Shown one piece after another: positions 15,426 to 18,919 of a DNA stretch of 64,000 nucleotides (position 1 is the first letter of the stretch; every line of letters starts with the position of its first letter). The DNA lies in NCBI RefSeq assembly GCF_005771405.1, contig NZ_VAUA01000011.1:62001-126000 (forward strand), given 5' to 3'. A program made the translations under genes and the position numbers. Source of the stretch: Parasedimentitalea maritima (lineage in GTDB: Bacteria > Pseudomonadota > Alphaproteobacteria > Rhodobacterales > Rhodobacteraceae). The notes beneath the pieces were generated by a model. That model was not told where the DNA came from. It did not search any database and saw only the letters and a list, made by a program, of their open reading frames with translations.

Positions 15426-17384
15426 ATGGCCAATGACCTCCTCTCCGAAACCGTAACGGAAACCTATGATGCATCCTCAATCGAGGTGTTGGAGGGGCTC
15501 GAACCCGTCCGTCAGCGTCCGGGCATGTATATCGGCGGCACGGATGAGCGGGCGCTGCATCACCTGGTGGCTGAAATCCTCGACAATTCCATGGATGAAG
15601 CGGTGGCCGGCCATGCCACCCGCATCGAAGTCACCTTGAATGCTGATTATTCGGTCACCATCACCGACAACGGCCGTGGCATCCCAATTGATCCGCATCC
15701 CAAATTCCCCGACAAAAGCGCGCTCGAGGTGATCCTGTGTACCCTGCACTCGGGCGGCAAATTCTCGGGCAAGGCCTATCAAACATCCGGCGGCTTGCAT
15801 GGCGTGGGGTCCTCCGTCGTCAACGCGCTGTCCGATAGCCTGGTGGTCCAGGTCGCCAAAAACAAAGAGCTGTTCGAACAACGCTTTTCGCGCGGCATCC
15901 CTTTGGGGCCGGTCGAAAAGGTCGGCGCAGCGCCAAACAAACGCGGCACCTTTATCACCTTCCACGCGGACGAACAGATCTTTGGCCACCACCGGTTCAA
16001 ACCCAAGCGCCTGTTCACCCTGGTGCGCTCCAAGGCCTATCTCTACTCCGGCGTTGAAATCCGCTGGAAAACGGAGATCGACGATGGCGAGACCGCAACC
16101 AGCGCCACCTTCCACTTCCCCGGCGGGCTCAAGGACTATCTAACCGAAGTGCTGGGCAAGTCCTCGGTCTATGCCGAGGCGCCATTTGCGGGCAAGGTTG
16201 AGTTCCGCGAGAAATTTGGCGAGGCGGGCTATGTGGAATGGGCGATCAACTGGACCCCATCGCGCGACGGCTTTACCCAATCCTACTGTAACACCGTCCC
16301 CACCCCTGAGGGCGGCACCCATGTTGCCGGGTTCTGGTCTGCGATACTAAAAGGCATCAAGGCCTACGGTGAATTGGTTGGCAACAAAAAAGCCGCAAGT
16401 ATCAACCGCGACGACCTTATGGCCGGAGGCTGCGCGCTGGTCTCCTGCTTCATTGCGGATCCGGCTTTTGTCGGCCAGACCAAAGACCGGCTATCCTCGG
16501 AATCCGCCTCCAAAATGGTGGAAAACTCGGTCCGTGACCACTTTGACAACTGGTTGGCCGCCGATACCAAATCAGCCGGGGCCATTCTGGATTTCCTTAT
16601 CCTGCGCGCCGAAGAACGGCTGCGCCGCCGTCAGGAAAAAGAAACTCAGCGTAAATCTGCCACCAAGAAGCTGCGCCTGCCCGGCAAACTGACCGATTGC
16701 ACCGCCAAAAACCGCAAAGGCACCGAGCTGTTCATCGTGGAGGGCGACTCGGCCGGTGGATCCGGCAAAGGCGCACGCAATCGGACCAATCAGGCACTGC
16801 TGCCACTCAAAGGTAAGATCCTCAACGTGCTGGGCGCGGCCTCCAACAAGATCGGCACCAATGCTGAAATCCGCGACCTGTGTGAGGCGCTGGGGGTTGG
16901 TGTGGGCACCAAATTCAACCTCGACGATCTGCGTTATGACAAAATCATCATCATGACCGATGCGGACGTCGACGGCGCCCATATTGCGTCGTTGCTGATG
17001 ACCTTTTTCTTCACCCAAATGCGGCCGCTGATCGACCATGGCCACCTGTATCTGGCCTGCCCACCGCTGTTCCGCCTCACCCAAGGCGCGCGCCGTGTGT
17101 ATTGCCTCGACGAAGAAGAACGCGACTCCTGGCTGGACAAAGGTCTAGGCGGCAAGGGTAAAATCGACATCTCCCGGTTCAAGGGTCTAGGCGAGATGGA
17201 CGCCAAGGATCTGAAAGAGACCACCATGGACCCCACCACCCGCAAACTTATCCGCATCACCATTGACGAGGATGAACCGGGTGAGACTGGGGAATTGGTC
17301 GAGCAGCTGATGGGGAAGAAGCCCGAGCTGCGTTTCCAGTATATCCAAGAGAACGCGCGGTTTGTGGAGGAGTTGGATGTTTGA
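15426..17384 (+). CDS. parE: DNA topoisomerase IV subunit B
   Basis: A 652-residue type IIA topoisomerase ATPase subunit. The GHKL ATPase part shows EILDNSMDEA, ITDNGRGIPID and TSGGLHGVGSSVVNALSD. The transducer domain follows, then the TOPRIM region FIVEGDSAGGSGKGARNR and IMTDADVDGAHI near residues 440-520. The QRPGMYIGGTDERALHHLV opening and the length are ParE-like rather than GyrB-like (no 170-residue insertion). With ParC it unlinks daughter chromosomes. Its stop overlaps the next gene's TTG start. Confidence 0.96.
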   Translation: MANDLLSETVTETYDASSIEVLEGLEPVRQRPGMYIGGTDERALHHLVAEILDNSMDEAVAGHATRIEVTLNADYSVTITDNGRGIPIDPHPKFPDKSALEVILCTLHSGGKFSGKAYQTSGGLHGVGSSVVNALSDSLVVQVAKNKELFEQRFSRGIPLGPVEKVGAAPNKRGTFITFHADEQIFGHHRFKPKRLFTLVRSKAYLYSGVEIRWKTEIDDGETATSATFHFPGGLKDYLTEVLGKSSVYAEAPFAGKVEFREKFGEAGYVEWAINWTPSRDGFTQSYCNTVPTPEGGTHVAGFWSAILKGIKAYGELVGNKKAASINRDDLMAGGCALVSCFIADPAFVGQTKDRLSSESASKMVENSVRDHFDNWLAADTKSAGAILDFLILRAEERLRRRQEKETQRKSATKKLRLPGKLTDCTAKNRKGTELFIVEGDSAGGSGKGARNRTNQALLPLKGKILNVLGAASNKIGTNAEIRDLCEALGVGVGTKFNLDDLRYDKIIIMTDADVDGAHIASLLMTFFFTQMRPLIDHGHLYLACPPLFRLTQGARRVYCLDEEERDSWLDKGLGGKGKIDISRFKGLGEMDAKDLKETTMDPTTRKLIRITIDEDEPGETGELVEQLMGKKPELRFQYIQENARFVEELDV

Positions 17385-17830
17385 TTAAGAGGTTTGCGAC
17401 CAGCCTTTTTGTGCTTTTTGCCGCCACAAGTGCTCTTGCAGGCGAATTGATTTTCGAACATTTTGCACGCGTGTCGGATGGGAGCATTTCAACGAAAATT
17501 TCGGTTGAAGATGGGTATCTGGTAGTGAAAGAGGACTTTGATCGTCGGTGCTATACAAGGGGACAAGCGCGCCACATAAAGGTTAAAATCGAACTGCAAA
17601 GTATTGGTTCGATTGAAGCATCAGTGCAGAATGGGACCGGAACTCTGTCGATCCATCCAAAGCAAAGCATACTTAGCCGCGGTAAACTTATTCGTGTCAT
17701 AAACGGCAAGGACTGTGGGGGACGTAGCTACACCCCATACTCTGGAAGATCTGAACTGATCTTGTGGCCCACTTTGGAAATTTCAAAAGACGCAGCCGAA
17801 GCCATCAGAAGCAAATTGGATAGTTTGTGA
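17381..17830 (+). CDS. Small secreted protein, function unknown
   Basis: A 149-residue protein with a clear Sec signal peptide (MIKRFATSLFVLFAATSALA, cleavage after ALA). The mature part is beta-rich by appearance and contains two cysteines (in RRCYTRG and KDCGGRS) that could form a disulfide. I do not recognise a family. The start is a TTG that overlaps the parE stop (TTGA), with GGAGGAG upstream. Its codon use is visibly less GC-rich than parE, so it may be a more recent addition. Confidence 0.65.
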   Translation: MIKRFATSLFVLFAATSALAGELIFEHFARVSDGSISTKISVEDGYLVVKEDFDRRCYTRGQARHIKVKIELQSIGSIEASVQNGTGTLSIHPKQSILSRGKLIRVINGKDCGGRSYTPYSGRSELILWPTLEISKDAAEAIRSKLDSL

Positions 17831-17899
17831 TAGGATTGGTCCACGCCAGTCCATTGTAAAGCGGTTAGAAACTTCTCTTACGGAGCGAAAACCACCTTG

Positions 17900-17943
17900 G
17901 AAACGCTCTCGAAGAGCGTTTCAGGCATGAACGGGTGGAGCCC
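17900..17943 (-). repeat. Box-hairpin element L (inverted orientation)
   Basis: Read on the minus strand: box GGGCTCCACCCG (17943-17932), a 9-nt spacer, then a hairpin with arms GAAACGCTC and GAGCGTTTC around TTCGA (17922-17900). The arms pair perfectly over 9 bp. This is the first of four elements with the same geometry, oriented opposite to copies 1 and 2. Confidence 0.85.
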
Positions 17944-18064
17944 AAGGCGCGTTCTCCTGTCCTCTCCCACAACACAAGGTCAGGCGCGGCCCGTGCGGCT
18001 ATGCCTTACGCCCCAAGAAGATATCTTGCTAACGGCGCTCATTGAATTAAACTGTTGGTGCGCA

Positions 18065-18108
18065 GGGCTCCGCCCGTTTAAACTTCAAACAATCCCCCAG
18101 ATTGTTTG
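18065..18108 (+). repeat. Box-hairpin element 1
   Basis: Box GGGCTCCGCCCG (18065-18076), 9-nt spacer, then a hairpin with arms CAAACAATC and GATTGTTTG around CCCCA (18086-18108). The 9-bp stem is perfect. Its geometry is identical to elements L, 2 and R, but the stem sequence differs. Confidence 0.85.
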
Positions 18109-18231
18109 CCGCTTCGCGGACCAGTTCAAACTCCACGGGGGGAAGGTCAGGCGCGGGCCGTGCGGCTATGCCTTACGTCCCAAGAGGATATCCTGCTATC
18201 GGCGCACTTTGAATTGAGCGGTTGGCGCTCA

Positions 18232-18275
18232 GGGCTCCGCCCGTCCAAATCTCAAACATCGCCCCACGCTGTTTG
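18232..18275 (+). repeat. Box-hairpin element 2
   Basis: Box GGGCTCCGCCCG (18232-18243), 9-nt spacer, then a hairpin with arms CAAACATCG and CGCTGTTTG around CCCCA (18253-18275). Eight of nine stem positions pair, with one T-C mismatch. The loop equals that of element 1, while the inner stem has changed on both sides. Confidence 0.85.
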
Positions 18276-18324
18276 CCCCTGCGGGAACCAGTGTGAACTC
18301 CATGGGGGAGTTGCGGTCGTCTCG

Positions 18325-18368
18325 GAAATGATCCAGGGGATCATTTCAGGCCGAAACGGGCGGAGCCC
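18325..18368 (-). repeat. Box-hairpin element R (inverted orientation)
   Basis: Read on the minus strand: box GGGCTCCGCCCG (18368-18357), 9-nt spacer, hairpin arms GAAATGATC and GATCATTTC around CCCTG (18347-18325). The 9-bp stem is perfect. It is oriented like element L and, like L, is flanked on the plus strand by AAGGCGCG. Confidence 0.85.
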
Positions 18369-18406
18369 AAGGCGCGGGCCAACGGCGGCGAATATCAGCC
18401 CCGCAT

Positions 18407-18919
18407 CTACAACTTCCCAAACGCCACCCCGCGCCAGACCCAGCCCAGCCCAGTCACCGCATCCTGCAACGGCACCTTCATCTCTTTGCTATCAAATCGG
18501 TAATTGTAAATCTCTCCGGGCCGCAGCTCTTCGGTGAACCCATAGGCCTTGCCGAATGACACCTCCTTTTTCTGCCCCCGAAACGCCGAGGCGGAAAAGG
18601 ACAGGGTCGGCACCCCCACCCGCCAGCTGATGCTGTAATCCTCATCCACCGCGCGGACCTCGTGCTTGTCCACATCCAGCCGCATCTTGATCCGCGCCGC
18701 CCGCTCTAGCCCGGCCTTGGCAAAAATTTCCACCCACTTGGCATCGACAATCTGCCACTCGGCGACAAAATCACAGCTGCCATCACTGCATTTGCTGACG
18801 CTATAAGGCGCAGTCTCGCGGTTGACCGCTAAAATGGCAGCTTCAATGTCCTGGGGGGAGGCTGGCGAGGTCCCAGCCTCCGGCTTTTTCGTGCCCGACA
18901 ACCAATCAAAAAGTCCCAT
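18407..18919 (-). CDS. Hypothetical protein, 170 residues
   Basis: I do not recognise this protein. It begins MGLFDWLSGTKKPEAGTSPASPQDIEAAIL, has two cysteines in SKCSDGSCDF near residue 45, and a beta-rich C-terminal half (RIKMRLDVDKHEVRAVDEDYSISWRVG) ending in GWVWRGVAFGKL. There is no signal peptide or membrane segment. ATG 18919 is chosen because the N-terminal LFDWL opening is a normal start, and the upstream extension to 19318 is low-complexity and arginine-rich. Its 3' end lies against the repeat mosaic. Confidence 0.7.
   Translation of the reverse strand: MGLFDWLSGTKKPEAGTSPASPQDIEAAILAVNRETAPYSVSKCSDGSCDFVAEWQIVDAKWVEIFAKAGLERAARIKMRLDVDKHEVRAVDEDYSISWRVGVPTLSFSASAFRGQKKEVSFGKAYGFTEELRPGEIYNYRFDSKEMKVPLQDAVTGLGWVWRGVAFGKL

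Follow-up and report, generated by a model that had tools for sequence, protein, structure and literature searches.

A REP-like palindromic repeat of Rhodobacteraceae with covarying stems

The four hairpin elements found in a 64,000-nt stretch of the Parasedimentitalea maritima genome (the window) are copies of a real repeat, widespread in Rhodobacteraceae, that is most likely a REP-like DNA palindrome near the CGTC-REPs while failing parts of their definition as given in the text and Table 1 of Di Nocera et al. 2013 (PMC3733652). We read it as a dispersed, non-autonomous family of REP-like DNA palindromes of Rhodobacteraceae, with a probability of roughly 0.6, in which an enzyme acting in trans on hairpin DNA would have spread the units, and the surviving copies would be those at gene ends, able to act there as a transcript-end hairpin. 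Among the REP-like repeats of Alphaproteobacteria, which are little studied and have no known transposase, such a family contributes a unit of three to four hairpins.

A sequence-only reading of the window had described four elements, each with a box, a 9-nt spacer and a hairpin, and their sequences, coordinates, strands and spacing all proved exact (Table 1). The middle two lie, as it had said, inside a 167-nt tandem (spacing 167 over a repeat of 166 nt, 82% identity), the single box with a one-letter change is that of element 1, and the single stem mismatch is in element 3. At up to one mismatch the box has five matches in the window against 0.64 expected, a number reached in 0 of 100 shuffles. 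ParE is encoded upstream of the elements, its closest named genome being Parasedimentitalea denitrificans CY04 (96%). Neither of the two flanking ORFs gave a match in a Pfam search, an Rfam scan of the window returned 0 families at the gathering score, and the 521-nt element region had no match in 50,697 phage records. Element 4 has four matches in 72,556 plasmid records (Ruegeria twice, Sagittula and Rhodovulum), with no listed feature under any of them in a gene table that is incomplete.

Table 1. Positions of the elements and neighbouring features in the window.
Feature	Positions	Strand	Basis
Element 1, type C, box 3'-terminal, outer stem degenerate	17881-17943	+	model R1, 51 bits
Tip hairpin P2 of element 1	17900-17922	+	sequence check
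Spacer of element 1	17923-17931	+	sequence check
Box hairpin P0 of element 1 (variant by one letter)	17932-17943	+	sequence check
Element 2, type B (P1, P3, P2, box)	18065-18135	-	model R2, 94.5 bits
Box of element 2	18065-18076	-	box scan of window
Spacer of element 2	18077-18085	-	sequence check
Tip hairpin P2 of element 2	18086-18108	-	sequence check
Element 3, type B, with partial stem decay	18232-18302	-	model R2, 80.8 bits
Box of element 3	18232-18243	-	box scan of window
Spacer of element 3	18244-18252	-	sequence check
Tip hairpin P2 of element 3 (one mismatch)	18253-18275	-	sequence check
Element 4, type C, better preserved of the two type C	18306-18368	+	model R1, 86.4 bits
Tip hairpin P2 of element 4	18325-18347	+	sequence check
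Spacer of element 4	18348-18356	+	sequence check
Box of element 4	18357-18368	+	box scan of window
Tandem duplication, 167-nt spacing, carrying elements 2 and 3	17976-18308	.	82% identity
Half of palindrome family A (AAGGTCAGGCGCGGGCC)	18143-18159	.	own-genome matches
Family A half, variant by one letter	17976-17992	.	sequence check
149-aa ORF, upstream of elements	17381-17830	+	ORF call; without Pfam match
Convergent ORF, downstream of elements (start inferred)	18407-18919	-	ORF call; without Pfam match

The apparent spacer is actually half of an outer stem (P1), whose other strand lies beyond the hairpin, and the box, taken at first for a fixed word, is itself a small hairpin (P0). The complete unit is 63 nt long (type C) or 71 nt long (type B, which has one more hairpin, P3). 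Read in gene direction, it starts with GGAGTGAG, followed by the first strand of the variable P1, by either a CGTCTTG bulge (type C) or the small hairpin P3 (type B), and by the tip hairpin P2, with GAAA or CAAAC at its stem base, a variable core and a 5-nt loop; the 3' part consists of the P1 return strand and then P0, whose loop is mostly GGA (77/96 type C copies, with AGA in 8/96).

Forty-one copies were collected, most by similarity to the window, and the alignments took in 16 type C and 20 type B copies, without five unusual ones (those in loci L005, L006 and L001, element 1, and L056:1547). Covariation is seen in P1, P2 and P3 and also, for type C, in the outer pair of the box, which varies with its pairing kept; the box stem is invariant across the 20 type B copies. 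The type B spacer pairs with the far side of the hairpin as GTCCACACT/AGTGTGAAC or GTCCATACT/AGTATGAAC, for example, and type C outer stems pair as GAGCC/GGCTC or GCGCC/GGCGC. In the type C alignment (A3) 95.0% of cells are paired, compared to 84.2% when shuffled and 25-54% when slid, and for 10/20 pairs at least one copy has both partners replaced; the corresponding values for type B (A4) are 94.8%, 87.0% and 35-45%, with 11/26 pairs changed on both sides, although the copies are related by descent and such counts are therefore not independent events. The number of further pair types in type B gives no support, being reached by 497/500 shuffles in alignment A2 and 12/500 in A4. RNAalifold, unaided, recovered four P1 pairs in type C and found no P1 in type B. 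In a larger type C set the P2 core is fully Watson-Crick in 80 of the 92 copies ungapped there, with 14 distinct fully paired P2 cores and 42 distinct arms of P1; alignment A5 was built to fit the structure of the model, which favours pairing. Both the geometry and the change of stems with pairing kept are real, and hold genus-wide.

The P. maritima genome has eight exact boxes, seven of which are accompanied by a hairpin 5-9 nt away; the eighth (C23:44642) is followed by a variant box that precedes the next hairpin. The supposedly exact 9-nt distance is thus the usual one (five of the seven) without being universal, as distances of 8 and 5 nt were seen once each. Searched from the side of the hairpin, the same genome has 15 places matching AAANNNTC-N5-GANNNTTT, compared to 3 for a reversed control pattern; nine of the 15, read by eye, have a complementary NNN, and all nine have a box with 0-2 mismatches. 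The box therefore accompanies the hairpin, and by models R1 and R2 there are about 11 elements in this genome. Extending the search to related Rhodobacteraceae, as the sequence-only reading had advised, revealed copies in 8/8 genomes of the genus (10-24 matches per genome with R1 and 8-16 with R2, at partly shared places) and in at least 79 of 198 genera of the family, each represented by one genome. A sample of the class gave at least 3 in 190 genomes, namely that of P. maritima, another of Rhodobacteraceae and one of another family. The first look scored 150 candidates per genome for the genus and 27-28 for the family and class, so few that all copy and genome counts are lower bounds. The spread is nearly confined to one family, Rhodobacteraceae. 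Copies of equal score occur within single genomes (three in G195, three in G077 and two in G200), and head-to-tail arrays are seen in G156 and G113.

One hundred loci searched with the models yielded 127 matches, or 114 after same-place repeats were removed, around which genes were predicted with a simple codon-based caller and an upstream gene was counted within 300 nt. In the order gene, hairpin, box, the upstream gene is co-directional in 84/114 copies, opposite in 15/114 and absent in 15/114, a preference for positions just 3' of genes. Some copies sit in other palindromes: 11/114 lie in those of family A (GGCCCGCGCCTGACC...GGTCAGGCGCGGGCC), which are about 60 nt long with variable inner hairpins, occupy about 20 places in the P. 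maritima genome, many at weak E-values, and host type C elements in the genus. Copies nested in the tip hairpin of another copy number two by pattern, with two more found by eye. At a RimO/MiaB-type gene the last codons form one arm of the element's P1 (L316, L317, L319, L320, L322 and L323, at about 2.87 kb in gene orientation), so the C-terminus of this protein differs between species with the stem.

Selection at the RNA level would be expected to leave frequent G.U pairs in the transcribed direction and rare A.C mismatches. In type C, 96 distinct copies including fragments give 1706 Watson-Crick, 44 G.U, 35 A.C and 89 other cells, in an alignment that was fitted to the structure and so favours pairing as such but neither strand; these few wobbles, with little strand bias, suggest a DNA palindrome. 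In type B, 20 G.U pairs in gene direction compare with 3 in the opposite direction, a single pair accounting for 8 of the 20; in a separate 16-copy alignment, G.U and A.C number 10 and 1. This suggests that most copies look like DNA palindromes while type B leans towards RNA. Compensatory change thus need not imply selection on an RNA fold: type B shows the wobble bias of an RNA, type C near parity. With most copies favouring DNA by their wobble counts, a covarying repeat is not necessarily a functional RNA. We doubt that the repeat is an RNA structure that selection on the transcript conserves at mRNA 3' ends, as a terminator or as a stabilising hairpin. Besides the type B bias, such an RNA is consistent with the mostly co-directional upstream genes (30 clusters against 9 opposite and 6 without a near gene, when related sites are collapsed to 45), with the gene's stop codon coinciding with element positions 6-8 in 9/45 clusters, with pairing largely kept at orthologous sites, and with the good RNA folds of window elements 2 and 4 (z of -3.05 each against shuffled sequences). 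Element 2 alone folds to the full consensus, all four helices being present in both its minimum-energy RNA and DNA folds. However, the RNA fold of element 3 is hardly distinguishable from those of shuffled sequences (z -0.43) and is not the consensus structure, element 1 is weak (z -1.93), and in element 4 the tip hairpin is formed with a box pairing unlike the consensus; folded as DNA, the same strands of elements 1 to 4 reach z values of -2.64, -4.79, -1.25 and -3.58. Copies inside the transposon gene orfA and nested copies also fit an RNA poorly, as does the lack of an Rfam family in the window. A canonical intrinsic terminator was rejected, since four terminator-like sites lie between positions 17000 and 19400 (3.4 expected) and none of them coincides with an element hairpin followed by a T-run.

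The many orthologous sites within one genus allow stem change, gain and loss to be followed. A radical-SAM/TRAM gene whose domains are of RimO/MiaB type is followed by the element in 6/8 genomes of the genus, the gene end being empty in G004 and G007 and G001 and G003 having a different outer stem. Between G000 and G002, which share P1 and are 97% identical over the 150 nt upstream, 3/9 P2 pairs differ, all by double Watson-Crick changes; between L231 and L232 (a shared gene end, upstream 87% identical) double changes affect 4/7 P1 and 3/9 P2 pairs, and one further P2 pair is changed and broken. Three pairs changed together beside so similar an upstream sequence need not mean selection on an RNA fold, and the change looks more like a whole-stem exchange. 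We consider it unlikely that this reflects a system of hairpin cassettes, in which box, geometry and flanks would stay at a fixed site and self-complementary stems would be swapped whole, in one step, by an activity on hairpin DNA, so that pairing would be inherited and letters not. The stem-swap reading draws on few sites, because single changes are common too and the same change is shared by many comparisons: across 62 comparisons in 19 hand-picked site groups, pairing in P1 survives 26 double and 27 single changes and is broken by 26 single and 8 double ones, the corresponding numbers for P2 being 29, 17, 25 and 12. It is possible instead that the elements are relics in which the cell itself maintains the complementarity of the arms, through templated correction of imperfect palindromes or inter-copy conversion, with neither selection nor present mobility. 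The double changes lacking intermediates at both of these sites, and the decay of window elements 1 and 3, would fit such relics, but single changes match double ones in frequency, the G000 P2 tip occurs once in the P. maritima genome, so that no exact donor is seen there, and the equal high-scoring copies in other genera need dispersal. Dispersal as a passenger of IS3-type transposons, with the element sitting in orfA and spreading with the IS, is very unlikely, even if some copies lie in such transposons. At L280 the element is at the 3' end of an orfA matching HTH_Tnp_1, with an rve orfB next to it in an IS3-type arrangement; at L290 orfB also matches rve, while the short orfA piece there had no match in a Pfam search (elements at L280 3279-3341, L290 3352-3414 and L290 5684-5748). 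A 1366-bp stretch containing the element is shared by L280 and L282 (99.6% identity) and for the most part by L281, the three G195 elements lie in near-identical IS stretches, and the genus copies L203, L209 and L226 adjoin matches to the L280-type orfA. As the 63 nt correspond to 21 codons and two frames are open through the element (by eye), an orfA-orfB frameshift would still be possible. The P. maritima genome, however, has about 11 elements yet no match to the L280-type orfA, and by our own reading only one or two of the 45 site clusters are of the IS kind.

The co-occurring transposase proposed at the outset was sought as the Y1 transposase PF01797, of which there are 0 in the P. maritima genome, control genomes being positive in 5/14 cases; among 27 genomes it is present in 4/14 element-bearing and 1/12 element-free ones and so does not track the element, leaving a Y1/RAYT link unsupported. 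No target-site duplication is readable at the copies. The nested copies suggested general insertion into hairpin loops or tips, an idea we rejected because flanks are little more complementary than shuffled ones: among 112 copies, complementarity scores of 6, 7, 8 or more were observed 39, 19 and 10 times, with 35.8, 12.0 and 4.4 expected, and a score of at least 12 in 0/112. An integron attC-like site, which the location behind genes had brought to mind, was provisionally set aside on the box sequences of such sites.

BIME/RIME-type repeats combine several palindrome families in mosaics, and families A, B and C are combined in mosaics here as well, a likeness at the level of description. No description of this repeat in Rhodobacteraceae is found in the open-licence literature among the matches listed. 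The initial statement that no named repeat family has this layout was nevertheless too strong, as the CGTC-REP superfamily described in the text of PMC3733652 is close, if not a clean fit. CGTC-REPs are, by that text, mostly alphaproteobacterial, with an 8-9-bp stem subject to complementary changes and a 4-5-nt loop, lie mostly downstream of genes with some intragenic, and have no dedicated transposase known; likewise, the present repeat has a 9-bp stem (aligned copies) and a 5-nt loop (nearly all), gene-end and intragenic places, alphaproteobacterial hosts and no known transposase. Their definition (Table 1, PMC3733652) has an unpaired CGTC tag adjoining the stem end without extra bases, whereas the CGTC of type C, though conserved, is 3 nt from the tip stem with its first C paired in P1, and type B has no CGTC. 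The same source gives A-T in stem positions 1 and 2 and a 3-nt tail that is mostly CCA; here, position 2 is A-T but position 1 mostly G-C or C-G, the type C tail is mostly AGG, followed by P1, and the unit has an outer stem and a box hairpin in addition. That source also describes a predominance of head-head dimers, and arrangements seen among the present copies include single units, head-to-tail arrays and mosaics. As the place of the tag, the first stem position and the tail all depart from that description, we do not file the repeat as a CGTC-REP, while regarding it as REP-like. CGTC families are reported there in all alphaproteobacterial orders, so a Rhodobacterales family may be present in its Figure 2, although its text does not name Rhodobacterales, Roseobacter, Rhodobacter, Ruegeria, Paracoccus and others. 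The original guess of a REP-like element was a good one. GTAG REPs, which can supply a stop codon according to the text of PMC3733652, are also short palindromes at gene ends, but there is no GTAG in either consensus and, again, no Y1 transposase in the P. maritima genome. Rickettsia palindromic elements, which can sit in frame inside genes by the accounts in PMC3733652 and PMC2229807, share with this repeat, compared by description only, a palindromic form and in-gene copies.

Some observations concern single genomes or loci. G202, a 2.2-Mb genome in about 340 contigs, has 27 copies, several less than 100 nt from contig ends (L283, L285-L289), as though the element lay at the edge of some longer repeat. 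On contig C1 of G003, six weak matches of equal score (327832, 3349936, 3350058, 3509856, 3509978 and 3893463), including two pairs 122 nt apart, perhaps belong to a related repeat family. Downstream of parE, at a distance of 0.7-1.4 kb, elements are also found in Leisingera, Phaeobacter (two), Epibacterium and an uncultured Roseobacter, which amount to 5/80 named parE loci by pattern (L066, L068, L070 and L071 at 12.8-13.3 kb, L078 at 12.7 kb), suggesting that the place behind parE may be old.
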